Made by a program: the position numbers and the translations under genes. Positions 1,268 to 21,967 of a stretch of DNA of 40,366 nucleotides are shown here, piece by piece. The notes beneath the pieces were generated by a model. It saw only the letters and a program-made list of their open reading frames with translations. It searched no databases and was not told the DNA's origin. Position 1 is the stretch's first letter. Every line of letters starts with the position of its first letter. The stretch covers positions 1 through 40,366 of the IMG/VR virus record IMGVR_UViG_3300012920_000094; one strand, written 5' to 3'. Source of the DNA: a virus.

Positions 1268-1382
1268 TTCGTTAGCAGCGTTTACACAAGTGTATTTAAT
1301 GTTCGGAGCAATGTTTTTACTAGGATTGTTTGCGATATTTATATGGATTAAAAGTGATAAAGATGACAGAGAAAACAATTAA
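1260..1382 (+). CDS. small single-pass membrane peptide
   Basis: This is a 40-residue open frame starting at an ATG that overlaps the MazG gene stop and ending 20 nt inside the next gene, so it fits exactly into the tight operon. The sequence has an acidic start (MDDS), one hydrophobic stretch of roughly 20 residues (about 12-30, MFGAMFLLGLFAIFIWI), and a charged tail rich in Lys, Asp and Arg. This is the layout of a one-helix membrane protein with the tail probably in the cytoplasm. The upstream in-frame ATGs lie inside MazG and are less likely. No family is recognised. Its place in a nucleotide-metabolism operon gives no clear function; small toxic or membrane-modifying early phage peptides often look like this, but that is only a comparison. 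Confidence 0.5.
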   Translation: MDDSLAAFTQVYLMFGAMFLLGLFAIFIWIKSDKDDRENN

Positions 1383-1641: not shown

Positions 1642-2077
1642 AAAGAAGAAAAAAGGACCTGTCAGAGCAAAGAAGACCGTCGTTGATGGTCTTTCTTTCT
1701 CTTCGGGTTTAGAAGCTTATATGTATAAAGCATTAAAAGCTGCTAAAATACAAGCTAAATACGAAGGAGAAACGTATGAACTAATACATGCTTTTAAATT
1801 TCAAAGTGATGTATATGAGAGATGTGCAAATAGCAAAGGCGAATATAAAAATAGAGGAAACAAAAATATTTTAGGAATAAAATATACTCCAGATTTCGTA
1901 GGTAAAAACTTTATAATTGAATGTAAAGGTAGACCTAACGAATCTTTTCCGATCAGATGGAAACTATTTAAAAGATATGTCGAAATGTTTTTGCCTGGTT
2001 ACACAATTTATAAACCACAAAATCAAAAAGAGTGCGACGCAACTATAAACCTCATCCTAAACAAAGCGCAGCAATAG
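1628..2077 (+). CDS. PD-(D/E)XK endonuclease, T7 endonuclease I-like
   Basis: This 149-residue protein begins with a lysine-rich stretch and then shows the catalytic layout of T7 endonuclease I: an early glutamate in SSGLEAYMY (E29), then YTPDF (D89), then IIECKG (E98, K100). In the T7 family the equivalent residues bind two Mg2+ ions and cut branched DNA such as Holliday junctions and replication forks, which helps degrade host DNA and resolve phage DNA before packaging. The length is the same as that of the T7 enzyme (149 residues). A KNRGNKNILGIK insertion precedes the PD motif. The start lies 14 nt inside the previous gene. The nuclease superfamily is firm. Junction resolution is inferred, and a related replacement such as a DUF1064-type nuclease cannot be excluded. 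Confidence 0.8.
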   Translation: MWRGKKKKKGPVRAKKTVVDGLSFSSGLEAYMYKALKAAKIQAKYEGETYELIHAFKFQSDVYERCANSKGEYKNRGNKNILGIKYTPDFVGKNFIIECKGRPNESFPIRWKLFKRYVEMFLPGYTIYKPQNQKECDATINLILNKAQQ

Positions 2078-2082
2078 CGCGT

Positions 2083-2190
2083 ATGCAATACAAAAACAGA
2101 CAAGTTGATAAATTTGTTAAATGGAGTATTGAGCAAAAAGGATATTTGAAATATAGAGAATTAATAGAATTTGAAAAACAATATAAATGA
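2083..2190 (+). CDS. very small basic/helical protein of unknown function
   Basis: A 35-residue frame runs from the ATG at 2083, 5 nt after the nuclease stop, to TGA at 2188-2190, where it overlaps the next ATG by 4 nt (ATGA). The sequence (MQYKNRQVDKF...KGYLKYRELIEFEKQYK) is charged and probably helical. The frame stays open upstream, and a GTG at 2032 would give a 52-residue protein beginning VRRNYKPHPKQSA, which overlaps the nuclease gene by 46 nt and looks equally protein-like. The evidence is only its fit in the operon and the stop-start coupling; no family is recognised. Confidence 0.45.
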   Translation: MQYKNRQVDKFVKWSIEQKGYLKYRELIEFEKQYK

Positions 2191-2357
2191 GAAATTGGGA
2201 CTTAAGTATAGGTTTTTATCCAGGAATATTAATTGGAATGAGAACCTATGGAAGCCAAATTGGCGGAAAAACCTCCCATGTGTTTTACTTACCCTTAATT
2301 GATTTGTGTATAGATATATATAATGAAAGAACAGACATTAATAGAGATGAAAAATAA
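2187..2357 (+). CDS. small conserved-looking phage protein (56 aa)
   Basis: The ATG at 2187 overlaps the preceding stop (ATGA), and the frame runs to TAA at 2355-2357, 35 nt inside the next gene. The protein starts MRNWDLSIGFYPGILIGMRTY and later has a HVFYLPLIDLCIDIYNE segment. The aromatic, glycine-rich start and hydrophobic middle do not look like random translation. I recall similar short proteins, with a start in this style and a FYLPL...DI-Y motif, in other aquatic phages, but I cannot name a family. Without this gene the stretch would be an unexplained gap in an otherwise gapless operon. A surface- or membrane-associated role is possible. Function unknown. Confidence 0.6.
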   Translation: MRNWDLSIGFYPGILIGMRTYGSQIGGKTSHVFYLPLIDLCIDIYNERTDINRDEK

Positions 2358-2550
2358 AATTGATTCTATGACTAGAATTTTACAACATTTAATCAATGAA
2401 ACAACTCATCTTAGAGAACTTGGTGTAGGTACTTTAGAAACTTTAAAGTTAATGCCTGGTTACCAAGACGCCATCGATAAATTAAAAAAGAAGATGGAGG
2501 AAAATGTAGAAGAAAAAAAGAAAGCTGAAAAGAATGGAACTAGCAAGTGA
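2323..2550 (+). CDS. small coiled-coil protein of unknown function
   Basis: The 75-residue protein starts at the ATG at 2323, preceded by an AT-rich leader (GATATATATA) with no clear Shine-Dalgarno sequence. Residues 1-35 form a heptad-like helix (MKEQTLIEMKNKIDSMTRILQHLINE). A short LGVGTLETLKLMPGY middle follows, and residues 50-75 are a very lysine/glutamate-rich helix. It overlaps the ribonucleotide reductase gene by 17 nt and the previous small gene by 35 nt. No enzymatic motif is visible. It may be an accessory or oligomerisation peptide made together with the reductase, but no function can be assigned. Confidence 0.6.
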   Translation: MKEQTLIEMKNKIDSMTRILQHLINETTHLRELGVGTLETLKLMPGYQDAIDKLKKKMEENVEEKKKAEKNGTSK

Positions 2551-4396
2551 AATCTTATCTAATATTACAGTATATATGAAATATGCAAAGTATATTCCAG
2601 AACTAAATCGCAGGGAAACTTGGGATGAGTTAGTAACAAGGAACAAACAAATGCATATTAAAAAGTATCCAGACTTAAAAGACCAAATAGAAGAAGTTTA
2701 TAAGTTAGTATATGAAAAGAAGGTTTTACCAAGTATGCGTAGTCTTCAGTTCGGTGGTAAACCGATTGAGATATCTCCTAACAGAGTATACAACTGCGCT
2801 TATCTCCCTATTGACCATGTAGATTCATTCCATGAAACAATGTTTTTGTTACTTGGAGGAACTGGCGTAGGGTATTCTGTTCAAAAACACCATGTTAGTA
2901 AATTACCTCCTATAAACAAACCTTATGAAAAACGTAGGAGAAGGTTTTTAATTGGTGATTCAATTGAAGGTTGGGCTGACGCGATTAAAGTATTAATGAA
3001 GTCTTATATGGGTGATCGAAGATCGTCTAGAATTAGTTTCGATTACTCGGATATAAGACCTAAAGGTGCTCAGCTAGTGACGTCAGGAGGTAAAGCTCCT
3101 GGCCCACAGCCTTTAAAAGAATGTTTAGTTAAACTTAAAGGTATATTACAAGCTAAAGAGGATGGAGATCAATTAACAACAGTAGAAGTTCATGACATTA
3201 TATGTCACATAGCTGATGCTGTATTAGCAGGTGGTATTAGACGTGCTGCCTTAATATCTTTATTTTCTGCAGATGATCATGAAATGATTGCTTGTAAATC
3301 TGGAAACTGGTGGGAAACAAACCCACAAAGAGGTAGATCAAATAACTCTGCTGTTTTAATGCGACATAAAATTACTAAAGATTACTTTATGAATTTATGG
3401 GAACGTGTTGAAAAAAGTGGAGCCGGAGAACCCGGAATTTATTTTAACAATGATAAGGATTGGGGTACAAATCCCTGCTGTGAAATAGCATTACGACCTT
3501 ATCAATTTTGTAACTTATGTGAAGTTAATGTTTCAGATCTTGAATCACAAGATGATCTAAACGAAAGAGTAAAAGCTGCGGCGTTTATTGGAACGTTACA
3601 AGCTGGTTACACTGACTTCCATTATTTAAGAGAGATATGGCAAGAAACAACCGAAAAAGACGCTCTGATTGGAGTGAGTATGACGGGGATAGGGAGTGGC
3701 ACGGTATTAGGATACGACATGGAGAAAGCCGCTCAACTTGTAAAAAGAGAAAACACAAGAGTCGCGAAGCTGATTGGAATTAATAAAGCCGCGCGATGTA
3801 CAACTGTGAAGCCTGCTGGGACGACATCTCTGGCATTAGGAACTTCATCTGGTATTCATGCGTGGCATAATGATTATTACATCCGTAGGATCAGAGTTGG
3901 AAAGAACGAATCAATGTATAAATACTTAGCTGAACATCATCCTGAGTTAATTGAAGACGAGTATTTTCGACCTCACGATACTGCTGTAATATCTATACCA
4001 CAGAAAGCTCCTGAAGGTTCAATACTTAGAACTGAATCTCCATTTGATCTTTTAAATAGAGTTAAAAAGATAGCAACTGAATGGGTTAAACCGGGCCATA
4101 GAAAAGGATCTAATACTCATAACGTTTCTGCTACAATTAGTTTAAAACCTGAAGAATGGTTAGATGCAGGAGAATGGATGTGGGATAATAGAGAATACTA
4201 TAATGGTTTATCGGTGTTACCTTATGATGGTGGAACGTATACTCAAGCTCCATTTGAGGATATAGATCCAAACAAATATCAAGAGTTGATGCAATCGTTA
4301 AAGCAAGTTGACTTATCAAACATAACAGAAACAGAAGATAACACAGATTTATCAGGTGAACTAGCTTGCGCTGGTGGTGCTTGTGAGATTAAATAA
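2534..4396 (+). CDS. nrdJ: adenosylcobalamin-dependent (class II) ribonucleoside-triphosphate reductase
   Basis: The 620-residue enzyme converts ribonucleotides to deoxyribonucleotides using a B12-generated radical. The barrel and active site are visible: YNCAYLP with Cys88, NPCCEI with Asn313, Cys315 (thiyl radical) and Glu317, and Cys326, 11 residues later. That spacing equals Cys408/Cys419 of the Lactobacillus leichmannii monomeric enzyme, with Cys88 as the probable disulfide partner of Cys326. PAGTTS at about 428 is a conserved loop. The tail ends CAGGACEIK (Cys612, Cys617), the shuttle pair that re-reduces the active site. It is shorter than the ~740-residue L. leichmannii enzyme. It is the last gene of the + operon, directly before a terminator. 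Class II enzymes work with or without oxygen but need B12, so the host must make or import it. Very secure. Confidence 0.95.
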   Translation: MELASEILSNITVYMKYAKYIPELNRRETWDELVTRNKQMHIKKYPDLKDQIEEVYKLVYEKKVLPSMRSLQFGGKPIEISPNRVYNCAYLPIDHVDSFHETMFLLLGGTGVGYSVQKHHVSKLPPINKPYEKRRRRFLIGDSIEGWADAIKVLMKSYMGDRRSSRISFDYSDIRPKGAQLVTSGGKAPGPQPLKECLVKLKGILQAKEDGDQLTTVEVHDIICHIADAVLAGGIRRAALISLFSADDHEMIACKSGNWWETNPQRGRSNNSAVLMRHKITKDYFMNLWERVEKSGAGEPGIYFNNDKDWGTNPCCEIALRPYQFCNLCEVNVSDLESQDDLNERVKAAAFIGTLQAGYTDFHYLREIWQETTEKDALIGVSMTGIGSGTVLGYDMEKAAQLVKRENTRVAKLIGINKAARCTTVKPAGTTSLALGTSSGIHAWHNDYYIRRIRVGKNESMYKYLAEHHPELIEDEYFRPHDTAVISIPQKAPEGSILRTESPFDLLNRVKKIATEWVKPGHRKGSNTHNVSATISLKPEEWLDAGEWMWDNREYYNGLSVLPYDGGTYTQAPFEDIDPNKYQELMQSLKQVDLSNITETEDNTDLSGELACAGGACEIK

Positions 4397-6579: not shown

Positions 6580-6858
6580 TTATTTCTTTTTATTTTTGTA
6601 TACTTCTTTATCTACTTCTCTACACCAAAATAATATTTCATCTACCTTTTCTTCTAGTTTTTCGATGTGTTGAGTTTGCCATTGCTGTTTTAGATCATAT
6701 TCAATTCTATCTATAACTGCTGGAGGCATTTTTTTAGCTTCTTCTATATCTGATTGTAAAGTATAATACATACCTACAAAAGTCGCTGTTAAAACTACAA
6801 TTTTAATTATACCTTTTAAATCTAGTTTCACTTCTGTTTGTTCAGTAATCTTAGTCAT
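6580..6858 (-). CDS. single-helix membrane protein with coiled coil (holin- or spanin-like candidate)
   Basis: The 92-residue protein has a charged N-terminus, one hydrophobic helix at about 16-34 (IIKIVVLTATFVGMYYTL), and then a long charged helix (HIEKLEEKVDEILFW...VDKEVY). This layout, with one N-terminal membrane anchor and a coiled-coil tail, is shared by many phage membrane proteins near the lysis cassette, including i-spanins and some holins. It overlaps the end of the giant virion protein gene by 8 nt, at the end of the virion block where lysis genes are often found. No partner outer-membrane spanin or endolysin was recognised next to it, so lysis function is only suggested. Confidence 0.6.
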   Translation of the reverse strand: MTKITEQTEVKLDLKGIIKIVVLTATFVGMYYTLQSDIEEAKKMPPAVIDRIEYDLKQQWQTQHIEKLEEKVDEILFWCREVDKEVYKNKKK

Positions 6859-9800
6859 CTTTCATTAACTCTAATAACTTTTCAACTCTATCGGCTTCAT
6901 ATTTTAAAGCTCGTATTTCTTTTTTAGATAAACCTAAGCTATCTAACATTTCAACTTGTTTTGGTTTATTAAGTTTAGTATATTCTAATGAATCTAATTG
7001 ATATTGACTATATCTCATAGGACTAGCTTTTAAAGGACCAGTTCCTATTTTTGTAGTATAAACTTTTCCACTCTCTTCTTGCTTATCTAAAATAGCATTA
7101 GTTCTAGTTTCTTTATCTTCCATTGCTTTTATCTCTTCATCACTATAACCATGTTGTTTTAGAATATCTACCTGTTGAGCTTTATTATACAAACTAGGAT
7201 CTTCTCCTTTTCTACTTTTATCTTTTTGGTCTTTAGTTTGTAATTGCCATTCTGGCCAACCTAAAAACATAGCTACTCTCATCCATGTTTCATTTTCGCT
7301 ATTTGCAGCTCCTTGTAAGTTTTCTATTTTTTGTAAAACTCTATCTAAAGGTACGTTTGTAGTAGCTGAAAATACTTTAGCAAATGATTCAAAGGCTGGA
7401 TTATCTAAACTAAATCCTTTATCCATTATAGCTTGTCTTCCTTTTTTACTATCAAAAGGACGACCTGCAGATTTAATTTTTTTCAATTTGCTTTTTAAAG
7501 CAGGTGAAAATTCTAATAAAGTTTCCCAAGCATCAGAATATTCTGGTCGTTCTCTTTGTGATCTCTCTGCAATGTCCATTACAAAGTTTTTCAATACAGA
7601 CACAGTCATTCCACCTAAGCCAAGTCCTCTTAATATAGAATCAACAGCACCATTAGCAGTATCCCATCCTTTTTCCTCAACGTCTTCTTCAGTTGCTTCA
7701 TCCCCAAAACCTAAGGCAAAAGCGCCTTGTTGCATCATGTTAAACCAAAGATTTTGAACTATTCCATAATATACAATTTTACTTACATTACTTTTCCAAT
7801 CTCCCCTTTTGTTTACTATATCTTTAAATGCTGCTTTTTGTAATCTAGCATATTGCATAGGTGTGTTAACAAATTGTAAAAATATTCTACCTACATCACT
7901 TGCTTGTTGCATAGATATTTTACTAGGATCAGAAGATTGTTGAGACTTTTCAGATATTTCCATAAACTCTTCATAAGCCTTTGCTTTAGCAGCTTCTTCT
8001 GATAAACCTTCTTTCTTCATCAGATCATTTATTCTATTTCTATACCACGTAGCTCCACCTGATGCTATAGCAAAACTATCTGCAAATCTAGTAGGAGCAT
8101 AACCTTTTTCAAGAATATAGTTAACAGCGGCTTTAGCTTTGTTAGAGCTAGTAGCAGCTGCATCTGCTATTTCACTTTCTGATATGTTCATTTTCAAACC
8201 ATTTCTCCTATCTACTAAATAGTCAGAATTCATTAACTCCATAAAATCCTTCCAATATTGAGGTTGGTTAGCAAACGCTTTACCAGCTTTTAAAGGATTA
8301 TTAAAACCTATATTTATAAAGTTAGCAGAAGATATAGTTTGCAGTATAGCTGATCTCATGTTGAGGAACATAATAGTTCCTTGTGCGTTGTTAATATAAT
8401 CTAATACTTGATTACCTAATCTATTACCGGTTTCAGTTCTATTTTTACCAGACTTCATTCTAGTTAACATATTTTCTAAAGCTTCCCTATACTTAGGACC
8501 ATATGCCGCTTCTAATTTGTTCATGTTTTTTTCTGAAAAAATAACATCAACATTATCTCTCCACTCTTGCAAATATTTACTACGTTTTGTTGTACTTAAA
8601 ACATCAATCAAATCTGTAGTAATTGTTCCACTTAACCAGTGTTGTCCAGGTTTATTATAGCCATCACCTTTTGTTAATTGTAAAATAGATTCAGCAAAAG
8701 CGTGAAGTTTACCATCGCTTTCTATTATTGTGTTTAATTCTGCTAAGTCTGTTTTAGAAAGACCGGGAATTTTTTGACCTGTTTTGTTCCATAAATAAAC
8801 CCTTACAGCTTGTTCTTTAGTAAAACCTGATTTAGTTTTTTTCCTTAAATCTTTAGGAACTTTAAGTTGATTTTTAATTGCTTTAAAATCTCCCATCATA
8901 TTAACTCTTTCAGTAGCTAAACTGTTTATTCCTCTAGAGTAAGGTTTATATAAAGTTTCATTATAAAATTCTCTTTGCTGTTCCCCTACTTTTCCTTTTC
9001 CTAAAGTAAAATCCATTAATCCTGTAAAATCTTCTGCTGATGGTGGAATCCAAAACTTTCTTTTTTGATTTTCTTTTCCTCTTACTTTAGCTTTAGCACT
9101 AGAAAATTCTTTCTGCCATTCAATACCTGTTTTATTTTCAATGATCTTATTAAACATCATATCTAAGTTTTCAGAACTTCTATTAAATCTTGCTTGTTGT
9201 ACTTTTGATTTAACATCAATAGGTTCTAAGGCTTTTTTAACAGCTTCTACATTTTGAATAGCATCATCTGCGAAATAAAAATCATTATATCCCTCAGCAG
9301 CTTTATCCACGATCCACTCTGCTTTAGCTTCACCTGTAGAATTACCTAGTCCTTTTATGTTTTCTAATGGAATATCAATACCCATCGCTTTTAAAAACTC
9401 ATGAATAGCAGTTGCAGATTCTGGAGCTCTTGCTGTAAGAATAAACATATCTCTATCTCCAGGTGATTCTTTCATTTTCTTCATTAAATCAAATAACGGT
9501 CCCTTTTTTCCTTCTACAACTTTATTAAAATCCGAAAAATCCATTTTCCAACCTTCTTCAACTAAACGTTCTCCTTCTTTAGCAAATTCTTCTGCAGTTA
9601 GTATTTTCTTTTCTCCACCTTTAGTAGCAAACACTTTACTATTAGTTCTAGCTACTGTATCATCAAAATCAAATATTCTTGCTTTCTTTTTCTTCGAGTT
9701 AATTTCTCTTCCTTTTTCTAACGCTTTATCAGCTGTTTTAGTTATATCTATTAACTCTTGTTTAGTTTTACCTTTAGTAGAAGATCTATTCCAAAGCCCA

Positions 9801-12800
9801 ATGTTTTCTACTACTTTTCTATCTGCCGCAGTAACCTTTTCGTTTCTAGCTATTTTAGCTGCTATCTCATGTTCTTTTCCATACTTTGAAGCTTCGTAAT
9901 CTTTAGTTTTAATATAATCTTTTAGATTCAACATAGCGCGCGCTCTAGGATCTCCATATGTAGCTAAATTAAACGCACGCCCATATCTTTCTCCTCCTTT
10001 AATTACTTGAAATGCTTTATCAGTTTTATATTGATCTTCTAACAGCTTATCTAGTGTTTTAGTTTCTCCTTTTTCATAAGTCTCTATCAAAGCAGTTTCA
10101 TAATTATCAAAAGCTTTGTTTAACATGTCTTTAGCAGATTTCTTGAGTCGTAAAGTTTTTCCACTGCCTATCCATGATCCTTTATTATTTAAAATAGCAG
10201 TAAGTTCTCTTAACAATGGATCAGCTGCTCTTTTATGTTCTACAGTAAGGTTCTTTAATCTATCACCTTTAAGCGGAATCATAACGTCAGTTAAGTTAGC
10301 TGATGATCTTAGATGAGTAGTCATATTAGTATTATAACTATTTAACTTTAAAAATAACAATTCTTTATCTATTTCACCCTTTTTAAAATCTTTGAAATCT
10401 TCAATCATTTCATCTAATACATTTTTTTGAAATTCATTAGCTTCAATCTCTCTTTCTTTTATTTCTTTTTCTAACCTTTTAAATTTTTCTGGATTATTTT
10501 TTGCCCAATTAGGATCCGCTTCCATTTCTGTAGCATATTCCATTAACCATTTCAAACTTTTAGGATTTTGTCCTTTAGTTTGTAAATCTGCTTTAACCTC
10601 TTTACCATTAATTTTTAAAGATCCAGGTTTTAAACTTCCTTCTTTAGGGTGTCCTTTTTTATATACTTGGTATTCTAAATCTATTCCATATTCTTTTAGA
10701 ATAGGCTTCATTGTTTCAAATAAATCTGGTTTCCCTCCAAAAAATTGTCCTCTTTTTCCTCTAGCACCACCAGCACTTACTAAATGATTAGTATTATATT
10801 TTAAATAATTAATAACAGTTTTTACAGGATCAGTTGAATCTTTAAGTTTTTTATTCAAATACTTCATAGTATGCTCTACTCCCTCATTAGCTCTTTCAAT
10901 AGCTTTTTCTTTAGCTGAGATATTAATATCTAACTGTTTTTGTAACTTAGCAGATTCACTTACTTCTAATCCTCTATCTAACATTTTTTGGACTTCAAAA
11001 TCTGCTATTTCTTCTGCTTTTATTTTTTCAATATCTCCTTGTAAATCTTTAGCTTCTCTTTCTATTCTATTTTCAATATTTCCTTTAGAATATTTGTATC
11101 CTTGTATTACTTTTTTTCCTACATTCAACAAGTCTTTAGCCATTCCTCTAGCTATTTTATTGTCAATTGTAAATCCATTACCAAGATCAATAGCTTTTCC
11201 TTCAACCTCTGTTACTTCTTTAATTAAATTTTTTAATTCAGTTTCTGTAACGTCTGGCCATCCAGCTTTTATTAATTTTGACGGTAATTTTTCTTTTAAA
11301 ATACTACTTATTCGATCTGTAATTTCTAAACCTAATGAAGCATCCGTTCCTACTTCAACTCTAATAGCTTCTGCTAATGTAGAAGATCTTCTGAAGTTAC
11401 TAATTTCTATTTGTTGATTAATTTTTTGAGTAAAATCTCCTGCTTCTAACTGTTTAACTTTGAAAGCTTCTCCAAATTGACTAGTAACTTCTCCTTGAGC
11501 TAATAATTCTTTTACTGTGCTCATGTAAGTATCTCTACGTTTATTAAACTCTGCTTGTGTTATTTCTTTGTTATCTAATTCTAAACGAGATGTATTAAAA
11601 TCTTTTTCTGCTTGATCTAGCTTATATTCTATCTCATTTTTCATTTCAATAGTTTCTAGAAACTTTTTAGATCCCCAACTATCAGCAATTTGGTAAGCTA
11701 ATCCTTTTTTCTTTGCTCCCCATCTACTTGGAACAGCAGCTTCTATAAACTTCATTTTATCTGCTTCCGTAAGATTTTCTTTAACCTTCATGCTTTTAGG
11801 GCCCGATGTCCATCGCTTGTCTCTACCTGTAGTTCCTGTAACTTCTTTACCTCCTTTAGTAACTAAAAAAGGAAAATTCCTTGAAACATAACCAATGGGT
11901 AAACCACGAACTATACTTTCAAAATTTTTACTTACATAATCTGTATATTCAGCTTTAGTTTTACCCATGCTTTTTTCTACAGCTGCTGTTCCTTTTGCTC
12001 CAAATTGTTTTTTAAATTCTCTAACAAAGGGAGATATAGTTTGATTCCTACCTGCAGGTTTTTCATACGCTTCTATTAACTTAGGAAAGTCTAATTCTTT
12101 CATATCTTTGTTAAGCTGTTCGATAGAACTTTCATTTAAGCCTAACTTTTTAGCGGTTTGCTCAGATGTAGCTTTAACATATACTTCCTCTGGACGCGAA
12201 GATTGATCTACAACATCGTATCCTGTTTGCTCTTTCATTTGATCTAAAGACTTTTTTCCTTGATCGTAAACTCCCATATCTCTTTTTACATCTATAGCTT
12301 TTCTACTTAAATAACTATTGATATAAGCAAAAAATCCTTTAGCACCACTAGTTGTTTGTTTAACTTCACTAAATCCTTTAACTAATTGAGATATTTCACT
12401 ATACACACTTCTAACAAAATTAGCATCCATTCGTTGCGTCCAACCTTTAGGTCTCGGAACAGGTAAATTAGCTCCTATTAAACGATCTAATAAACCTTCT
12501 TTTTCCATGGTTTCTAAAGCTTTTTTCCACCCACCTTCGCTCCAATCACGAGCGTTCTCTTTATAAAGTTTTATCATCTCAGGTTCTACGTCCTTAACTG
12601 CACTTTTATTTAAAGTTTGTGAAAGTTCAGGATTTTCTCCCTCTAACCATTTCTTATATTCTTTTATACCTTCATTAGCAACTTTACTTAATTTAGTAAA
12701 ATCTTTTCCTTTAGCTTTAGCAAATCGAGCTAAGAAATTTCTTGCTCCTTCTCCTGTTTCGAAATTAGCGTCTTTAAAAGCTGTTTCTTTATTAACCACT

Positions 12801-15800
12801 TCTTTTAACTTGCTTGCTAAATTTTTCCAAGTTCTTACATCTCCCTTTTGAGCAAATGGATCAAGCTTTCCATCTTTAACCATTTCTCCATATATAGTTA
12901 ACCATTCAGATCCTTTATAACCAGGTTTATAGTCAGGATGAGTTTTTAATTGTTCTAATACTGCGTTATATTCTCCTGTTTTTTTCAATGTGTTAATGAA
13001 ATCTCCAACGAATTCAGGATTAGTTGCAACAGATTTTTCTACTAAAGGATGTATTATTTCATGAAATAAAGTATTACGCTTTGCCTTGCTCATAATTGAA
13101 AAATCTTTACCTTCAGCTAACAAAGGTTTACTACGTTCAAAATTTTCATTAAACTTTACTTGAGCTTTAGCAGCTTTAGCTTTATCAACAATAGTATAAG
13201 TTTTAACTCCACCCTTTGTTTTAATATCAATGTGTGCTCCGTAATCACTTCGCCTTACATCAATACCCATCTCTTCAAGAAGCATTTCATCTATTTCTTC
13301 TCTTTGTTTTAGCTTTTCTAATTCTTTTAATTCTTTTCTATTGTCTTTTTCAAATTTTGTTTTTGCTCTATTCTCTAAAGCCTCTGCAGCTTCTTTTCCG
13401 TAAAGATCTATAATAGCTTGATTAACCGTTTGTCCTTCTTTAGTTTCTATTACTTCAGCTTCCGTAATAGATTTTTTAAGTTTTTCTATTTCAGCATTAG
13501 TTTCTTTTGCTTCTAGTTCTATTAAACCTTTTTCTCTTTCTAATAAAGATTTTTGTTTTTCTTTTATTATTTCACTTTGTAGATCTAATGTAGCTTTATT
13601 TATTTCTCCTTTTTTATGAGATTTTTTCAACTGTTCTAATTCAACTTCTAATTTAAAACCTTGCGATTGTAATTTAAAAAATTCTCTTTGATTTTTAGAA
13701 CCTTTTCTAAAACCGTAAGCGTCATTTACTTTAGCTAAATTCTCGCACCAGTCTACATATTCTTTAGCTTTTAACTCTGACATACCAGTAGCTCCCATTA
13801 ATTCTTTTATAAGAGCGTTTCGATTAGCACCTTCAGACCAACTAGAAATTTGTCCCAATTTCAATTGATCCATATAATTTGTTTCTACTCCTTTAGCTAA
13901 TCTTCCTAGTAAATTTTCAAATTCCCCAGACATACTTTTTTCTCCATATGCAGCATCCCACATACTAGGTTGATCATAGCGAGTTTGATCTATTTCAGAT
14001 TTTAATTTTAAAAACTTAGAAACTTCTTGAAGATTATTTATTTCTTTTTGTTGTTCAGAAGGAGTTAACTCTTTATTAGAATTTATTTCTTTTATTCTTT
14101 TACTTAAAGCTAAATCGATTTCTTCTGCAGTCCAAGAACTTTTACGTCCTTCATGATTTTTAGCGCTGTAGTTTTTTATTTTACGTAAGTGTCCTCCATA
14201 CATATCAGCTGCAGCGTTATATTTTCTAGTAGCAGCAGTAGTTCCAAAATTCTTTAAATCACTCATTAATGTTTTAAAACCAATCTTACCTTCTCTTCCA
14301 CCTGATCGCATACCCATAACGAGCATTGTACCAAAAGTTTCTACAAATGAATCTGCATCTAAAGCGTGATCCCAGAATTGAGTCCAGTTCATTTCTCCAG
14401 AAAACACATCTGCTATACTTCCAACCAGTTCTCCAGACTTAATAGTAGCTGTACCGATTCCTGCTTGTAACATTTTTTTAGGTGCGTATCCTGCTAGTCT
14501 TAATGGAGTACCTAGTAATAATGGGTTATTGTTAACAATAGAATTAACTGTTCCCCATTTAACAGCAGCAGGACTAGAACGTTGAGCAGAAGCGCTTAAC
14601 ATGTTAGTTTTAAATTGGTTATAACGCCTTCCTAATCCAGTCACACCTAATCTTGCTAAAGAAGAACCTAAAGCAAAAGACCACACAGGCATTCTTTCTC
14701 TTCCCCATGCATGTGATCCAATTTGATTAGATCCCTCTAATATCATTGCTTCGTGTAGCATCATTTTTGTCCATCCGCCAGCTACTACCGAAGTCTTCCT
14801 TCCTAATCCTGCCGTTCTATACAATTGAGTGGCGCGTCGTCCAATGTTAGCTAAAGCTACTCCACTACCCATACCTGCGGTTAAGAATTCAATAGCAGCT
14901 GTTTCAGCAATCATAACAGCAAAAGTAGGTACTTGCCTTCCAACAGTATACCAAGTAGAAACGTTATCTAATTTTTTATCTAATTCGTTTTGTAAAGCAT
15001 TTACTTGTATATCTTCTCCCGTTTCTTTATCTTTGATAGTTATTTGTTTATCTACTCCAAAGTCATTTATCATAGAGGTTACAAATTCTTGCTGTAGTTC
15101 ATCATCATATACTCCTGCCATATCTACTCCAAAAGCTTCTGGAAGTCCACGTTTCATTCCTTCTAACATTTTCTCTCCTGCTTCGGCTTTCCCTTGAGGC
15201 GTCCAAAAAGAATGAGTTGTTTCAGCTGCTTTATTTTCTAAACTTTTTACAGGGTCAAAGTTCATTAAATAAACCTCTGACAATGCTCTTAAAGTATTAA
15301 GTTTACTATTATAAGATTTACATAAAGGAGTAGTGCAGTTTACTGGAGTGAGGTGATTAAAGTCTATTAAACCTGTTTTTTTAAAATTTTCAATGATATT
15401 ATTCATATCATCTAAATCTTCTTGAGTAGTTTTTAGATTGCCTTGAGTTGTTATTCCTAAAACATCTTGAGTTTTATCTAAAAAACCTCCTTCATAACCC
15501 CATCCTGAACCGCCTAAATGAATACCTATTTCTTTTTCGGTATAATTTTTAGCGTTGAAAGAAGTCATGTCATTTAAAATATCTCGTTGAAGTTTAAATA
15601 ACAGATTTTTTACAGTATCATTAGTAAATATACCTGATGAGAAATCATTAATAATTTGATCATAATCTTTAGCTGATTGTTGACCTTCGTTACTTGTTAC
15701 TTCATCTTTTCTAACTAGTTGTCCAGTGCTTACGTCAATTATCATTACAGCTCTATCAGGATTTTCTAACTCTCTTCCTATTATATTATACCATTGTGTA

Positions 15801-17407
15801 TTTAAATCTTTAAGTTTAGAGGCTACTTCACTATTTTCCATCCTTTTTTCAGCTTGAGCTAATGCTAGTTTCTCAGCTTCTTTCCCTTTCTTTCCATTAG
15901 CATCGTAAATCTCTTGGGCTATGTCATTTCTTTGTGCGTAGTAATCAGTTAATAATTCTTTACTTTGAACGTTAACTTGAGCCATATCTTCCGCATCTTT
16001 AACAGTCCATTCTCTATCACTAGTACCAAGTTGGTTAGCTGCACTATAAAATGTAGACTCTTCTTTTTTAGTAACCATTATTTCGTAAACCTCTTCTGCG
16101 CTTTTATTAGGATTTGATGCTGTAACGTTTGCTTCTAATGTCTGTGCTGCGATAGCATGTGTTTGACCGTCTTGTATAGTTTGAAATGACTTTGATGCTG
16201 ATACTCCGTCTATATGATGAGTAAAATAAAATTCCATTAATTTCTGAGATGCAATAGTATAATCATGTAAAGCAGTATTATAAATCTCTCCTCCATATTC
16301 CAAGTCAGTACGAATATCTTTACCAGCTCTAATATCATTAAATTCCCATCTTGCTTCTTGCCAATCTTCTAAAAGTTCACTATAAGCATCACCTAGATCA
16401 TTTGGATCTCCCTGAACATAAGCATTATTAGGTATGGCATGACGAGTTCCTGGTTTTGTAGGAAAAAACTTAGGAGTTAACTGCATATAAGGGCTCATAG
16501 TGTTATCATTCCACCAACTATGAATGTTATTTTCATCCCAAACAGATCCATCTACAGTTAACAATGGATAATATCTAGAATTACCACTAGCGTGATGAGT
16601 AGACATCACGTTTGCAAAACTTTTATTATTTGGATTTAATATGTTTATTTTTTCTTGATCGTATGATCTTACATATTTAGTTTCATAAATATCTTCTTTT
16701 GTTTTAGGAGCTTGTACTACCCAATTCGAAGTCTGTGTTTTTACCCAATCATTTATAGCAAGCTCTTTTGTTTGAGCTTCTTCTGCTTCTTGCGCAGCCT
16801 TTTCCTCTTCTTGTATTTTTTTTACTTTTGCGTGATATTCGTCTCTAGATAATGATAAATCCCACTCTTCCTCACTAGCTCGCAACTGCTCTGATTCAGG
16901 TAAAATAAATAATGATCCAGTTCTAGTATCTAAACCATATTTACCAGTCATCAATTTCTTTTTCATTATCTCACTATAGCCTCTTTGCCAATTACCTGGA
17001 ATACCTGTATTAGACCACGCCATATCGCCATTAATCATGTCTATAATATTTTTATTATTTTTCCATGTTAATATACCAACTACGTTGGGCAGGTCAAATG
17101 TTTTTCCTGTAAATACAGCGTTTGGATTATAATTGAATTTATCCTCAGTATCAGAAACTAAAGGAGATACTTTACTTAATGCTTTTGATTCTTTTGGTTC
17201 GTGTCCATGAACACGGTTCCAGTAATCTTCTACTTTATTAAAATCTTTAAGACTTTGAAAACCTTTAGATTTAGAAAAATCAAAAATATTTCTAAAAAAT
17301 TGATCATCTTGTAAGATATCCTTTTTCCAAACATGCTTTTCATATGACTCTACGTATGATGGATCATTCGTGATAATGTCTTCCCAAAGAAGGTCTAATT
17401 CATCCAT
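6851..17407 (-). CDS. giant virion/polyvalent protein (3518 aa) with zincin, sigma-like and HAD motifs
   Basis: This single uninterrupted gene is about a quarter of the window. In order: a charged N-terminal part with coiled coil near 190-215; an alanine/glycine-rich hydrophobic region at about 825-1060, like channel-forming internal virion proteins; coiled coil to about 1400; a zincin motif HEIIH (1449-1453); a helix FFAYINSYLSRKAIDVKR (1692-1709) resembling sigma factor region 2; helical linkers; a HAD phosphatase signature with DFDDT (2580-2584), ILTAR (Thr2658) and FADD (Asp2714, Asp2715); then a region with IPPSAEDFTGL and RVYLWNKTG, conserved in large proteins of marine phages; and a helical tail. 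Such assemblies match the polyvalent proteins of phages, thought to enter the cell with the DNA. It follows two internal virion-type genes, which supports packaging in the virion. No RNA polymerase signature was seen. Domain functions are inferred. Confidence 0.85.
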   Translation of the reverse strand: MDELDLLWEDIITNDPSYVESYEKHVWKKDILQDDQFFRNIFDFSKSKGFQSLKDFNKVEDYWNRVHGHEPKESKALSKVSPLVSDTEDKFNYNPNAVFTGKTFDLPNVVGILTWKNNKNIIDMINGDMAWSNTGIPGNWQRGYSEIMKKKLMTGKYGLDTRTGSLFILPESEQLRASEEEWDLSLSRDEYHAKVKKIQEEEKAAQEAEEAQTKELAINDWVKTQTSNWVVQAPKTKEDIYETKYVRSYDQEKINILNPNNKSFANVMSTHHASGNSRYYPLLTVDGSVWDENNIHSWWNDNTMSPYMQLTPKFFPTKPGTRHAIPNNAYVQGDPNDLGDAYSELLEDWQEARWEFNDIRAGKDIRTDLEYGGEIYNTALHDYTIASQKLMEFYFTHHIDGVSASKSFQTIQDGQTHAIAAQTLEANVTASNPNKSAEEVYEIMVTKKEESTFYSAANQLGTSDREWTVKDAEDMAQVNVQSKELLTDYYAQRNDIAQEIYDANGKKGKEAEKLALAQAEKRMENSEVASKLKDLNTQWYNIIGRELENPDRAVMIIDVSTGQLVRKDEVTSNEGQQSAKDYDQIINDFSSGIFTNDTVKNLLFKLQRDILNDMTSFNAKNYTEKEIGIHLGGSGWGYEGGFLDKTQDVLGITTQGNLKTTQEDLDDMNNIIENFKKTGLIDFNHLTPVNCTTPLCKSYNSKLNTLRALSEVYLMNFDPVKSLENKAAETTHSFWTPQGKAEAGEKMLEGMKRGLPEAFGVDMAGVYDDELQQEFVTSMINDFGVDKQITIKDKETGEDIQVNALQNELDKKLDNVSTWYTVGRQVPTFAVMIAETAAIEFLTAGMGSGVALANIGRRATQLYRTAGLGRKTSVVAGGWTKMMLHEAMILEGSNQIGSHAWGRERMPVWSFALGSSLARLGVTGLGRRYNQFKTNMLSASAQRSSPAAVKWGTVNSIVNNNPLLLGTPLRLAGYAPKKMLQAGIGTATIKSGELVGSIADVFSGEMNWTQFWDHALDADSFVETFGTMLVMGMRSGGREGKIGFKTLMSDLKNFGTTAATRKYNAAADMYGGHLRKIKNYSAKNHEGRKSSWTAEEIDLALSKRIKEINSNKELTPSEQQKEINNLQEVSKFLKLKSEIDQTRYDQPSMWDAAYGEKSMSGEFENLLGRLAKGVETNYMDQLKLGQISSWSEGANRNALIKELMGATGMSELKAKEYVDWCENLAKVNDAYGFRKGSKNQREFFKLQSQGFKLEVELEQLKKSHKKGEINKATLDLQSEIIKEKQKSLLEREKGLIELEAKETNAEIEKLKKSITEAEVIETKEGQTVNQAIIDLYGKEAAEALENRAKTKFEKDNRKELKELEKLKQREEIDEMLLEEMGIDVRRSDYGAHIDIKTKGGVKTYTIVDKAKAAKAQVKFNENFERSKPLLAEGKDFSIMSKAKRNTLFHEIIHPLVEKSVATNPEFVGDFINTLKKTGEYNAVLEQLKTHPDYKPGYKGSEWLTIYGEMVKDGKLDPFAQKGDVRTWKNLASKLKEVVNKETAFKDANFETGEGARNFLARFAKAKGKDFTKLSKVANEGIKEYKKWLEGENPELSQTLNKSAVKDVEPEMIKLYKENARDWSEGGWKKALETMEKEGLLDRLIGANLPVPRPKGWTQRMDANFVRSVYSEISQLVKGFSEVKQTTSGAKGFFAYINSYLSRKAIDVKRDMGVYDQGKKSLDQMKEQTGYDVVDQSSRPEEVYVKATSEQTAKKLGLNESSIEQLNKDMKELDFPKLIEAYEKPAGRNQTISPFVREFKKQFGAKGTAAVEKSMGKTKAEYTDYVSKNFESIVRGLPIGYVSRNFPFLVTKGGKEVTGTTGRDKRWTSGPKSMKVKENLTEADKMKFIEAAVPSRWGAKKKGLAYQIADSWGSKKFLETIEMKNEIEYKLDQAEKDFNTSRLELDNKEITQAEFNKRRDTYMSTVKELLAQGEVTSQFGEAFKVKQLEAGDFTQKINQQIEISNFRRSSTLAEAIRVEVGTDASLGLEITDRISSILKEKLPSKLIKAGWPDVTETELKNLIKEVTEVEGKAIDLGNGFTIDNKIARGMAKDLLNVGKKVIQGYKYSKGNIENRIEREAKDLQGDIEKIKAEEIADFEVQKMLDRGLEVSESAKLQKQLDINISAKEKAIERANEGVEHTMKYLNKKLKDSTDPVKTVINYLKYNTNHLVSAGGARGKRGQFFGGKPDLFETMKPILKEYGIDLEYQVYKKGHPKEGSLKPGSLKINGKEVKADLQTKGQNPKSLKWLMEYATEMEADPNWAKNNPEKFKRLEKEIKEREIEANEFQKNVLDEMIEDFKDFKKGEIDKELLFLKLNSYNTNMTTHLRSSANLTDVMIPLKGDRLKNLTVEHKRAADPLLRELTAILNNKGSWIGSGKTLRLKKSAKDMLNKAFDNYETALIETYEKGETKTLDKLLEDQYKTDKAFQVIKGGERYGRAFNLATYGDPRARAMLNLKDYIKTKDYEASKYGKEHEIAAKIARNEKVTAADRKVVENIGLWNRSSTKGKTKQELIDITKTADKALEKGREINSKKKKARIFDFDDTVARTNSKVFATKGGEKKILTAEEFAKEGERLVEEGWKMDFSDFNKVVEGKKGPLFDLMKKMKESPGDRDMFILTARAPESATAIHEFLKAMGIDIPLENIKGLGNSTGEAKAEWIVDKAAEGYNDFYFADDAIQNVEAVKKALEPIDVKSKVQQARFNRSSENLDMMFNKIIENKTGIEWQKEFSSAKAKVRGKENQKRKFWIPPSAEDFTGLMDFTLGKGKVGEQQREFYNETLYKPYSRGINSLATERVNMMGDFKAIKNQLKVPKDLRKKTKSGFTKEQAVRVYLWNKTGQKIPGLSKTDLAELNTIIESDGKLHAFAESILQLTKGDGYNKPGQHWLSGTITTDLIDVLSTTKRSKYLQEWRDNVDVIFSEKNMNKLEAAYGPKYREALENMLTRMKSGKNRTETGNRLGNQVLDYINNAQGTIMFLNMRSAILQTISSANFINIGFNNPLKAGKAFANQPQYWKDFMELMNSDYLVDRRNGLKMNISESEIADAAATSSNKAKAAVNYILEKGYAPTRFADSFAIASGGATWYRNRINDLMKKEGLSEEAAKAKAYEEFMEISEKSQQSSDPSKISMQQASDVGRIFLQFVNTPMQYARLQKAAFKDIVNKRGDWKSNVSKIVYYGIVQNLWFNMMQQGAFALGFGDEATEEDVEEKGWDTANGAVDSILRGLGLGGMTVSVLKNFVMDIAERSQRERPEYSDAWETLLEFSPALKSKLKKIKSAGRPFDSKKGRQAIMDKGFSLDNPAFESFAKVFSATTNVPLDRVLQKIENLQGAANSENETWMRVAMFLGWPEWQLQTKDQKDKSRKGEDPSLYNKAQQVDILKQHGYSDEEIKAMEDKETRTNAILDKQEESGKVYTTKIGTGPLKASPMRYSQYQLDSLEYTKLNKPKQVEMLDSLGLSKKEIRALKYEADRVEKLLELMKDD

Positions 17408-17414
17408 ATATCTA

Positions 17415-18788
17415 TTATTTTATTGGCGTAGCTTGTGTAGCAACAGTGGCTTTTTGAGACTCTGCAAGCGGTTGACTTATCTTAGTCAAAGCGTACTCTT
17501 GAAGTTTTTTCCTCAACTCTTTTTGTAAATTTTCTGTTCCCATGTATTTATCCTCTGAAAGATCTAAATCAGTTTGTAACCAACCTGCTAAATCTTCTTC
17601 TAAAGTTTCGCTCTGTAAAAAAGCATTAAATAAACTAGCAGCTGCTGGATTTTTGTAGCCTGTTGCATCATCATAACTGAGAAAATCTTTTAATTGTTCT
17701 TGATTGAGATAAGTTTGTTTTTTTGGTGTTGCACTCTCACCCTGAGGAGTTTCTCCATCCTTTTTTGCTACCTCAAGTTCAGTACCATCATCGCTAGCAA
17801 CTACTTTTTGAATTGATGGTCTATGAGTTTGTAAAAACTTATTAAATGCTGTATCAAATGATTCTTGTAAAGTTTTTTGATCACCCACCTTCTTAAAAAA
17901 CCCTCCATCAGCACCTCCAGTTTGACCTGCTTTATATTTACGTGAAAAGTCAGTGGCGTTTATAGGATCTATATCAACATCGTAGTTATATATTAAATTA
18001 CCATCACCATCTTCTGTATATATGTCATTGTTAGGATCTCTTGCCCATTTTTCCATTGCAGCATATTTTTCCTCAGGACTTACAATACCATCACCATCAG
18101 TGTCATACGTCATGTCTGTATAATCTATCTCACCAGCCGTAATTTTTGTATCCATAGGAAATATTTGCCAATCACCATTTTCATCTTCTGAAATTAATAA
18201 GTTTACTTCATCATCTTCCATTTTTTCAAACAACATTTGAAGTTGAGGATTAGAACTACTTAATACTGATCCACTTCTACCATCTTTTGGACTATTATAA
18301 TATTCTTGAGCAGCAGCCATTAAATCCGTTATACTAGTATGAAGTTTTTCTACTCGTCCAATGCTTTCACCTACAAATTTTTGTATCTCCATTTCAGTCA
18401 TGTCTTGACCTTCACTACTAGAAAGTTTATTACTTAACTCTTTTGCAATCTTACCTAACTGACTTTGTATTTGGTTTTGAATAGCTAATATTTCAAATCT
18501 TCGAGTTTTCTGTTTTTCGCTCCCCTTTTTCGTATCTCCATAGGCTCCACTTAAAGAGTTTTCTAAATTTTCTAAATCTTTAGTAGCGGCTTGGTATTCA
18601 GTCCAAAATGAACTTGTTTGCTTTTCTTGTTTAAGTTCTCTTTTCGCTTTCAATGCAGATACTTGCTGCTTTCTTTTCCGTAAAAAGTCTCCTATTTCAC
18701 TTATACCACTTGTTGCTGCTCTTCTAGTATTACGTGATGCCATTGCATCTGCCATTGTAAAATAAGCAGCGGGATTTTCATATGCCAT
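17415..18788 (-). CDS. internal virion-type coiled-coil protein with EF-hand loop
   Basis: The 457-residue protein has a basic N-terminal third (SRNTRRAATSG, then FLRKRKQQVSALKAKRELKQ), long helical segments, and at 229-240 a textbook EF-hand calcium loop, DTDGDGIVSPEE, with acidic residues at positions 1, 3, 5 and 12. A second acidic stretch, EDGDGN, lies ~35 residues later and could be a degenerate partner. The C-terminal half is helical and glutamine/lysine-rich. It sits between the internal virion protein and the giant gene, 7 nt upstream of the latter, in the order expected for proteins stacked inside the capsid and ejected with the DNA. Calcium binding is inferred from the motif. The broader family was not recognised. 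Confidence 0.7.
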   Translation of the reverse strand: MAYENPAAYFTMADAMASRNTRRAATSGISEIGDFLRKRKQQVSALKAKRELKQEKQTSSFWTEYQAATKDLENLENSLSGAYGDTKKGSEKQKTRRFEILAIQNQIQSQLGKIAKELSNKLSSSEGQDMTEMEIQKFVGESIGRVEKLHTSITDLMAAAQEYYNSPKDGRSGSVLSSSNPQLQMLFEKMEDDEVNLLISEDENGDWQIFPMDTKITAGEIDYTDMTYDTDGDGIVSPEEKYAAMEKWARDPNNDIYTEDGDGNLIYNYDVDIDPINATDFSRKYKAGQTGGADGGFFKKVGDQKTLQESFDTAFNKFLQTHRPSIQKVVASDDGTELEVAKKDGETPQGESATPKKQTYLNQEQLKDFLSYDDATGYKNPAAASLFNAFLQSETLEEDLAGWLQTDLDLSEDKYMGTENLQKELRKKLQEYALTKISQPLAESQKATVATQATPIK

Positions 18789-18807: not shown

Positions 18808-19527
18808 TTAACTCATCCAGTTAGGTAAGTCAGGGCCACCTTCACCACCTCCCTGCATTCCAACGTCTAACATAGATGTACCTATATTAGTTATATCGCC
18901 CATTAGTTGACCCATGTTTTGCTGAGCCATTTGATCAAAAGCAATTCCTGCTTGAAGTGCCCTATCTTCTAATCCAGCAAGTCTATTCAATTTACTAATG
19001 TCTCTAGTCTCTTGTCTATCATAAGCACTTACTTCTTCTGCTAATGCAGTTTGTTCTAAATCCCTCATTATTTGATTACGTTTAGCTTCTCCTGCAATTC
19101 TAAGTTTTTGATTGTCTAACTCTTGAGCTTCAATACCAGCACTAACCTCAGCTTTACTAGCAGCAGCCATTTGAGCTAGCGCCGTTGCGTTACCTGCACC
19201 TGGTCCCATTGCTGCAATAGTATCTAAAGTGTTTGCTAAAGCTTTATCAGTTTCGGCTATTTTTAAGTTAGTAGCTTGCATAGCAACACCTAAATTAGCA
19301 GCTTCATTAAACACTTGTCCTTTCATAGCTCTAATTTTATCAGCTTGATTTATAACAGGTTGTCTACTTTTTTCGAAATCTTCCATTTGTTGCTGTAATC
19401 TTCTAGCTTTAGCTTGTTCTATTCTTGACATTCTAGCATTTTTTGCCGCGTTGATCCCAGACATTGTTGCGCTACCTAAAGCTCCAACACCGGCTGTAAT
19501 TGCTCCAACAGTTATTATTACACTCAT
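18808..19527 (-). CDS. internal virion protein, T7 gp14-like layout
   Basis: The 239-residue protein opens with a glycine/alanine-rich hydrophobic helix (VGAITAGVGALGSATMSGI), followed by long alanine-, glutamine- and glutamate-rich helices and a short glycine-rich tail (GGGEGGPDLPNWMS). This is the usual composition of podovirus internal core proteins such as T7 gp14, which leave the head first and help make the DNA channel through the cell envelope. It overlaps the cupin gene by 4 nt (ATGA) and is followed by the EF-hand and giant genes, a typical small-to-large internal protein series. The assignment is by composition and position, so moderately sure. Confidence 0.65.
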   Translation of the reverse strand: MSVIITVGAITAGVGALGSATMSGINAAKNARMSRIEQAKARRLQQQMEDFEKSRQPVINQADKIRAMKGQVFNEAANLGVAMQATNLKIAETDKALANTLDTIAAMGPGAGNATALAQMAAASKAEVSAGIEAQELDNQKLRIAGEAKRNQIMRDLEQTALAEEVSAYDRQETRDISKLNRLAGLEDRALQAGIAFDQMAQQNMGQLMGDITNIGTSMLDVGMQGGGEGGPDLPNWMS

Positions 19528-19999: not shown

Positions 20000-21946
20000 T
20001 TAATTTGAAGATAACACGAACTGTGACGATGTACTAAATATTTCTTTCCTTCCTCCTGGATCTGTAGTTTTATCTATAGATAATTTAACTGTAGCTACAT
20101 ATCCTTTTATACCTGTCATTAAAGTCGCTAAACTAGATCCATCAGGGTTAGTAGGATAATTTATAGCTGATCCAAACAACACCTCATTATATCTAGGTTT
20201 TGTATTACCACTTACAATATCTGCTACGTATTTATTTTCTTTTAATACAAAACCAGCGTTGTTCGGCATACCACTTTCGTCTATATAAAATCCTTCTATA
20301 TAACTTAATACAGGTTCAGCCATATCTCTAAAATGAACTGAATTATTAAAAGTAGGAGGTTGTATATTCCAAGTTCCATCAGGATCAAATTCTTGCCAAT
20401 CTGAAACTATCATATCAGCTTCCCATCCATTACCACCTTCATAAGAAATTGTTTTGAAATTTTTAACTACAGTAGGTGAAGGATTAAAAATAAAAGTTAT
20501 ATTAGAATCATATGGTTCACTAACACCATAAAATTTACCATAATTTTTATTGTATGGAGGTGTAGCAGTTTCAAAGTAATGTTCATATAAGCCACATTCA
20601 TAAAAGCTATAGTATTTACTTTTTAAACTTCCTACAAATATAGGTTTATAACTGTAAAAACTAACCCATCCTTGAACTGTTTCATCAAAGTTTAATGTGT
20701 AATATTCCCCTTCTTCTTCTAGCGTTTGACCTGGTTGTTGTAAAGATATTACATAATTTTGATTGTGTACATCCCATCCACCAATAATTCGTGGTTTTTT
20801 ATAAATACTGAAAAATACCGCTACTTCATTACCGGTGAACAAATATGGGGTACTTAATGTAATAGTGTTAGTAGCATCTACATTACTTACAAAATTGTTT
20901 GTAGTAATTATTTGTCCATCATCAAGAATAAAAGTAACAATACTTCCATTTGGAACACCACATGGAAAATCTTCACTATCTATAGTAAACGTTAAATTTG
21001 TATCAGTATTAATACTATTTATAGTATAAGACGAACTTGCTTTTAAAGAAAAATTAGATCCAACAGCGTTTAAATTATCTCTAAACCAATCAACCATTCC
21101 ATAGGCGGATATTTCTGTAATACCATCCATAGATAAACGACATACTACTCCCCTGTCTCTATCTGTAAAATATTTTCTATAACCAAACTGTGCAAACGAT
21201 TGCCCGTTTTTACTTATACCATACTCTCCAGCGTATGGATTCAATTGACCAAAGAAACTAATATTTGTTGTATCTTGCGATCCTTGATCTCCAGAATATA
21301 AAGCATTTTTGTTTATTAATATCTTACTAACTTTTGCTTCTTGAAAAACTAACAATAAAGTGTTTTCTACATATAATTGTTCAATACTTCCATTTCTTTG
21401 CTCTAAATCTTTTTCTATATTTGTGGCAACAGAGAATACATTAGTTTCATTGTAACCTGTTCTAGTGTTTAATATACCTGAATGTATTACACTAAAGTTT
21501 CTATCTTGACCTTTAGGGTTTTCATCTACAGTATAAGCTCTTACACCTAAAGATAATCTTGTATTGTTAAACCCACCTTTTATTACGCTTTCTTCTATAT
21601 ACCAGTTAGCTCCACCGACACTAAAATTTTGATCTAATTCAACAAAACCTCCTAGTCCTTGCATGACCCCAGGGGTTCTACCAGCTGAAGCATAACCATT
21701 ATACCAAGCAAATGGAGGATAGCTTAGAGGTTGACCCGCAATTGCAGGATCAGGATAAGTAGAAGCTGTAATATATGTAGGTGTCCATGGTAAACCAGGC
21801 CATTGACCAATACCTAAATAGTATTCATCAAAAGTTAAATCACCTTTCCACGCGTCTGGTTCAGGATCTCCATTAAATGCTACTGCTGGGCAAACTTTTT
21901 TCAACCAAAAACTATTGAAATATTTTACTTGTATATTTACTGCCAT
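20000..21946 (-). CDS. tail structural protein (648 aa), beta-rich
   Basis: The protein is rich in Asn, Gly, Tyr and Thr and predicted mostly beta. The stretch IEESVIKGGFNNTRLSLGVRAY and the later FGQLNPYAGEYGISKNGQSFA and GYRKYFTDRDRGVVCRLSMDGI are the kind of conserved blocks seen in tail-end or nozzle proteins of crAss-like and other Bacteroidetes podoviruses. No enzyme motif or signal peptide was found. It lies directly downstream of the 1396-residue tail protein (21 nt gap), so the two probably assemble together at the lower tail. The start has an AT-rich leader without Shine-Dalgarno. A structural role is quite sure; the exact position in the tail is not. Confidence 0.7.
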   Translation of the reverse strand: MAVNIQVKYFNSFWLKKVCPAVAFNGDPEPDAWKGDLTFDEYYLGIGQWPGLPWTPTYITASTYPDPAIAGQPLSYPPFAWYNGYASAGRTPGVMQGLGGFVELDQNFSVGGANWYIEESVIKGGFNNTRLSLGVRAYTVDENPKGQDRNFSVIHSGILNTRTGYNETNVFSVATNIEKDLEQRNGSIEQLYVENTLLLVFQEAKVSKILINKNALYSGDQGSQDTTNISFFGQLNPYAGEYGISKNGQSFAQFGYRKYFTDRDRGVVCRLSMDGITEISAYGMVDWFRDNLNAVGSNFSLKASSSYTINSINTDTNLTFTIDSEDFPCGVPNGSIVTFILDDGQIITTNNFVSNVDATNTITLSTPYLFTGNEVAVFFSIYKKPRIIGGWDVHNQNYVISLQQPGQTLEEEGEYYTLNFDETVQGWVSFYSYKPIFVGSLKSKYYSFYECGLYEHYFETATPPYNKNYGKFYGVSEPYDSNITFIFNPSPTVVKNFKTISYEGGNGWEADMIVSDWQEFDPDGTWNIQPPTFNNSVHFRDMAEPVLSYIEGFYIDESGMPNNAGFVLKENKYVADIVSGNTKPRYNEVLFGSAINYPTNPDGSSLATLMTGIKGYVATVKLSIDKTTDPGGRKEIFSTSSQFVLSSN

Positions 21947-21967
21947 AATATATAATCACTTACTATT

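Follow-up and report, generated by a model that had tools for sequence, protein, structure and literature searches.

The 40,366-bp IMG/VR virus record IMGVR_UViG_3300012920_000094 (GC 33 %), referred to here as the window, carries a single open reading frame (ORF) of 3518 codons which covers about one quarter of its length. As judged from sequence comparisons, the giant protein encoded by this ORF probably belongs, as a polyvalent-type protein, to a set of three ejection proteins in a short-tailed phage of flavobacteria. By analogy with syntenic proteins annotated as structural, it is likely packaged in the virion and injected. When the giant was compared with its two closest relatives, L002 and L003 (80 % and 52 % identity, respectively), the ratio of nonsynonymous to synonymous substitution rates (dN/dS) was 0.04-0.53 in every domain. 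Against L002 the range was 0.04-0.32 over all domains, and 0.04-0.05 in the zincin, sigma-like, HAD and C-terminal domains. As dN/dS is below 1 in every domain, the substitution pattern indicates that the ORF is a functional gene under purifying selection. The order of the domains on the protein is a hydrophobic domain, a zincin with HExxH at residue 1449, a sigma-region-2-like module, a HAD-type phosphatase and a conserved C-terminal region (Table 1).

Direct searches with the giant returned little. Pfam scans of the whole protein and of 400-500-aa slices and a PHROGs scan of the whole protein gave no real match, tblastn against 50,697 phage records gave a single weak match, and no match at E < 0.001 was obtained when both AlphaFold2 (AF2) models were compared with PDB, and one of them with BFVD, using Foldseek. 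The multi-domain AF2 model was dominated by long helices. An IMG/VR scan seeded with the C-terminal 1,000 residues found at least 400 relatives, and scans with other seeds found 585 and 490 candidate stretches. The family set was made up of 164 complete giants, all distinct and no shorter than 2000 aa (range 2094-3697 aa, median 2864). The large terminase subunit (TerL) was approximately 71-81 % identical to that of the window in 28 of 29 contigs carrying related giants, the exception being a 36.6-kb record.

The zincin domain is catalytically complete on the basis of its residues H1449, E1450, H1453 and E1501. Exactly one HExxH was present in 151 of the 164 giants and two in none of the 164. 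Upstream of the core, the motif was found in 71 of 73 complete giants (0.275 expected from shuffles), and in a larger set it was found in 150 of 165 (0.53 expected from shuffles). Among 80 HExxH-centred sequences, 79 had the third-ligand Glu, which is the sole other near-invariant residue and lies 48 residues past the second His in the window. In the AF2 model the domain is built of three strands followed by a helix, the helix with HExxH and the helix with the Glu, a core matching that described for polyvalent zincins (PMC5512222). Peptidase_M78 (Pfam) was matched by 4 of 17 family members (best 8e-4), and a zincin profile built without window-like members recovered the window at residues 1449-1514 (E = 3.7e-8).

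About 140 of the 141 HAD-bearing giants retain every one of HAD motifs I (DxDxT), II (T/S), III (K) and IV (DD). In Pfam, this region of the relatives matched DUF2608 (28 of 39, best 5e-6), HAD, Hydrolase and PNK3P. The interval between zincin and HAD shows 13-20 % identity beyond the closest relatives, and its length is conserved at 1049 +/- 105 aa. The retention of a catalytically complete zincin and HAD across the family, and the spacing held despite such low identity, both argue for the ejection reading.

TerL and portal had their best match in the uncultured podovirus MW202828 (62 % and 49 % identity), followed by the Flavobacterium elemo phages (44 % and 40 %) and Cellulophaga phage phi38:1 (portal, 33 %). 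The hosts of the isolate relatives are Flavobacteriia, and one relative was found inside a Flavobacteriaceae metagenome-assembled genome. PHROG and Pfam matches in the window include portal, TerL, virion proteins and a crAss-type muzzle C-terminal domain. The giant gene is located at the end of this structural block, adjacent to genes for proteins of 239 and 457 aa, and the trio (239/457/3518 aa) parallels gp99/gp100/gp101 of phi38:1 and gp20/gp19/gp18 of elemoE. The small protein is homologous to phi38:1 gp99 and elemoE gp20, both annotated as virion structural proteins, and has an N-terminal hydrophobic helix. The middle protein is syntenic with phi38:1 gp100, elemoE gp19 and a 644-aa protein of MW202828, and no sequence match was found. 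The giants at the same place, phi38:1 gp101 (1691 aa) and elemoE gp18 (3694 aa), are homologous or syntenic to the giant of the window and are annotated as structural. Together with 17 giants of the window's core family they share a hydrophobic domain, which sits at a similar place in most of them, approximately 400-500 aa before HExxH. elemoE gp18 also matches the zincin profile, as the giant of the window does, but neither isolate protein has the HAD plus C-terminal core. The ejection reading is supported by the homology and hydrophobic helix of the small protein, by the structural annotation of the giants in cultured phages, and by their hydrophobic domain common to 17 giants.

Comparable sets have been described. 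The N4-like phage DEV encodes a trio of adjacent genes, gp73/gp72/gp71, with a giant of 3398 aa (PMC10925440), and a zincin is present in giants of the N4 type (PMC5512222); both observations favor the ejection reading. DEV and the window share a small membrane-helix protein, a middle protein and a giant of approximately 3400 aa. They differ in that the giant of the window shows no RNA polymerase and has HAD and the sigma-2-like module instead. Crassviruses were reported to eject large cargo proteins via the tail (PMC10172136), which together with the muzzle and crAss-type structural genes nearby also argues for ejection. The cargo proteins gp45-gp50 of phi-crAss001 likewise have a muzzle neighbour, whereas crassvirus giants are RNA-polymerase-associated proteins (PMC10172136). 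Polyvalent proteins combine disparate domains in one large phage protein, with zincin as a common hub, and some N4-type members are virion giants (PMC5512222). In the window at least two disparate domains occur in one chain (zincin and HAD established, sigma-2-like probable), so that the term polyvalent, used in a sequence-only reading of the window, is appropriate as to domain composition and phage origin. The mixture of domains and the zincin are alike in both cases, whereas LPD38, a domain that is common in polyvalent proteins without being obligatory, gave no match in 30 records searched, no Pfam family was matched by the helical domain at the C-terminus, and the word 'sigma' has 0 occurrences in PMC5512222.

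The same sequence-only reading had listed an unbroken 3518-residue gene filling a quarter of the window, a hydrophobic region, a zincin, a HAD phosphatase and regions conserved in marine giants, all in a gene that follows internal virion genes. These proposals held: the ORF was confirmed and its minus strand added, portal, TerL, the crAss-type muzzle and others were found among the neighbours, and the C-terminal region is kept in at least 400 IMG/VR contigs. The zincin rests on the HExxH, the third Glu, the AF2 core and the Peptidase_M78 matches in relatives, and the HAD on its invariant catalytic residues and Pfam matches. The hydrophobic region is a conserved domain of 14 giants (hydrophobicity peaks at residues 826, 908, 984 and 1015), placed like that of phi38:1 gp101, and is at most a putative channel. 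For the window itself, the phrase 'unusually rich combination' is justified, but the architecture is common to hundreds of viruses. Taken as a whole, the interpretation given in that reading was supported in part.

In the proposed mechanism, the trio would be analogous to T7 gp14/15/16 or N4-like gp73/72/71. The giant, packed in the capsid, would exit the virion before the DNA or together with it. Its hydrophobic domain would come to lie at the inner membrane, and the remainder would enter the cytoplasm. There the zincin could cleave host proteins or process the giant itself, and the sigma-2-like module could contact the core of the host RNA polymerase. The HAD phosphatase may have phosphorylated nucleotides, the ends of nucleic acids or proteins as its substrates, and the helical C-terminus, which is conserved, may serve packaging or anchoring. 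The analysis establishes the gene, its domain plan, the catalytic residues, the family and the synteny; packaging, injection, membrane insertion, processing and all targets are inferred.

Several observations weigh against this explanation. The 'structural' labels on the isolate counterparts are annotations only. HExxH is missing from 13 and HAD from 23 of the 164 giants. In HMM iteration, the hydrophobic domain of the window itself remained separate from the phi38:1 set. Finally, phi38:1 gp101 has no zincin, HAD or C-terminal domain, so the structural role can be filled without these three. This last observation, the location of the gene where the structural block ends, and a most conserved part that is a helical domain outside known enzyme families would also suit a protein that only builds the virion (inner core or ejection channel, with the zincin as maturation protease and HAD as a structural relic) and does not act on the host. 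We consider this unlikely, as a relic would not keep its HAD catalytic residues invariant in about 140 of 141 giants, and as the N-terminal half far outpaces terminase and C-terminus in divergence, which is typical of host-facing parts.

The giant could also be a polyprotein that the zincin cleaves into several mature proteins at assembly, in which case the virion would hold no 3518-residue protein. Polyvalent proteins have been proposed to undergo processing by zincins, and cleavage of P1 DdrB precedes its packaging, but the zincin-bearing N4 virion polymerase is packaged unprocessed (PMC5512222), and the long ORF is unbroken in 73 complete relatives. We regard cleavage at assembly as rather unlikely; it is compatible with ejection and does not exclude it. 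A virion RNA polymerase of N4 or crAss type is highly improbable. The size class and place of the giant are as in the N4-like enzyme and crAss-type neighbours are present, but the giant has no DxDxD-type catalytic motif, its D-rich motif is the HAD nucleophile, and no RNA polymerase family was matched in the Pfam and PHROGs scans of the giant.

The evidence from sigma-2-like profiles also favors ejection of the giant. The module contains a two-helix segment, F-x-P-x(n)-F/L-x2-Y-I-x3-L-x2-R/K, which in most members lies some 190-280 residues C-terminal of HExxH; L187, L225 and similar relatives have an additional upstream helix and a D-E-I-x-T-G-x-R-G pattern. On profile comparisons it is probably homologous to sigma region 2, and it may, with lower probability, bind the RNA polymerase core. 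Alternatively, it is a short helical bundle unrelated to sigma factors with an F-P-G-F-Y pattern arising by chance, a possibility that we do not favor. A chance bundle would agree with hhalign probabilities of 2-17 % overall, with the lack of a match when the segment of the window was searched alone, and with the absence of a sigma fold from the matches of the whole AF2 model. It fits less well with the profile searches of PDB. The best match of profile A11 was a sigma factor (E = 0.0038), and of its 23 matches (E up to 10), 17 were to various types of sigma factor, with the alignment falling on region 2. Profile A13, from a more uniform subset, again ranked sigma factors first and second (E = 0.013 and 0.033). 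In addition, Sigma70_r2 was the top Pfam family in both scans of family members. In hhalign comparisons with 32 sigma factors, profile A8 reached P = 0.0014, though with a probability of just 17 %, and control slices of the giant outside the module gave P > 0.09. The A13 HMM was not clearly above shuffles against 32 sigma proteins, and the sigma factors of five related viruses were not significant as sole template. A zincin-plus-sigma profile built without window-like members recovered the window at residues 1446-1883 (E = 1.7e-49), so the segment belongs to the sigma-like family despite having no match alone. Thus, the sigma region 2 of the sequence-only reading stands through family profiles and not through the sequence of the window by itself. 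Tryptophans are typical of sigma region 2.3, and they were not seen in the module. T4 gp55 is comparable as a sigma relative confined to region 2, but it is a late factor that stands alone and belongs to no virion giant. A separate sigma factor of approximately 250 aa is encoded by 5 of 30 relatives (L096-L100), and therefore at least these appear to use a sigma-using polymerase.

The giant evolves unevenly along its length. Seven relatives (L005, L029, L033, L039, L056, L061 and L081) have a TerL 79-80 % identical to that of the window and no BLAST match to the giant N-terminal of residue 2450, while their C-terminal domain keeps roughly 44-65 % identity. Because similarity is lost there while TerL and the C-terminal domain stay, the N-terminal two thirds change far faster, through divergence or exchange. 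Residues 1-640 are 58 % identical to L002, compared with 92-94 % for the zincin, sigma-like and C-terminal domains. Clean swapping of N-terminal cassettes was considered and dropped, since weak homology persists in the hydrophobic, zincin and sigma-like domains; fast divergence and exchange are therefore indistinguishable. A more speculative and rather unlikely extension is that the giant replaces a virion RNA polymerase. The sigma-2-like module, freed by the giant's own protease, would seize the host RNA polymerase core at entry; the effector half would be diversified or exchanged between close relatives, and HAD plus the C-terminal part would form a delivery chassis.

The first minutes of an infection are governed by giants carried in the virion, and apart from the polymerases of N4-, crAss- and jumbo-phages these proteins are poorly known. 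The sigma-2-like module, the C-terminal fold without a match and the size of this undescribed family are new. The family occurs in at least 400 viral contigs. It is testable, because flavobacteria of marine and Baltic origin are hosts to cultured relatives that encode a giant in the corresponding gene position. If a sigma-like piece is indeed delivered with the DNA, this would be a jump-start of transcription unlike bringing a polymerase.

Table 1 Features of the giant, its trio partners and neighbouring genes in the window
Feature	Residues	Positions	Strand	Remarks
Giant ORF	1-3518	6851..17407	-	3518 aa; ATG at 17407; stop-free inside
Fast-evolving N-terminal region	1-640	15488..17407	-	alignable with closest relatives only
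Hydrophobic domain (candidate membrane/ejection)	753-1140	13988..15151	-	common to 14 giants
Zincin metallopeptidase domain	1379-1514	12866..13273	-	HExxH 13049-13063; third ligand E1501 12905-12907
Sigma-70 region-2-like module	1619-1759	12131..12553	-	core 1689-1741; from family profiles
Glu-His module	2300-2505	9893..10510	-	invariant E2390-H2391 at 10235-10240
HAD-type phosphatase	2560-2745	9173..9730	-	D2580, D2582, T2584, T2658, K2695, D2714-D2715
All-helical C-terminal domain	2748-3406	7190..9166	-	conserved
Variable C-terminal tail	3406-3518	6854..7192	-	differs among relatives
Middle trio protein		17415..18788	-	457 aa
Small trio protein		18808..19527	-	239 aa
Muzzle/virion protein, two ORFs		20000-26158	-	ORFs of 1396 and 648 aa
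Co-chaperonin GroES-like protein		37394-38080	-	near TerL
ORF with ConA/laminin-G-like lectin domains		38861-40366	-	cut by the edge
MazG-like		350-1267	+	
Resolvase-like		1628-2077	+	
B12-type ribonucleotide reductase		2534-4396	+	

In the Glu-His module, E was present in 54 and H in 53 of 55 sequences, and a family search with the module returned no known family. The module is absent from L092 and L033. L092 has 'PFNVELKKKTA' instead, whose resemblance to a PD-(D/E)XK nuclease motif suggests an exchange of the module. The AF2 model of the C-terminal domain consists entirely of helices (pLDDT 76, pTM 0.72); no PDB fold was matched by Foldseek and no Pfam family was matched. Its identification as LPD38 gained no support, PF18857 being unmatched in 30 records in a search run without a positive control. 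Insertions of approximately 200 aa between HAD and the C-terminal domain were seen in L024, L062, L066, L067 and L073. The tails are K/R-rich in many relatives (K+R 34 % of the last 30 residues vs 14 % overall), and the window and some relatives have an alternative tail with a 'LDSLGLSKKxIKxLKYExDRV' helix. The tail is a possible packaging or DNA-binding signal.

phi38:1, elemoE and MW202828 each encode the muzzle/virion protein in one gene (1324-1551 aa). In the window its two ends lie in separate ORFs, of which the 1396-aa one resembles the start at its N-terminus and the 648-aa one the C-terminal part; either a split gene or a large insertion would account for this. The lectin-domain ORF likely encodes a host-recognition protein. 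GroEL/GroES genes are also found in related isolates, and the MazG-like, resolvase-like and ribonucleotide reductase genes are encoded on the strand opposite to the giant.

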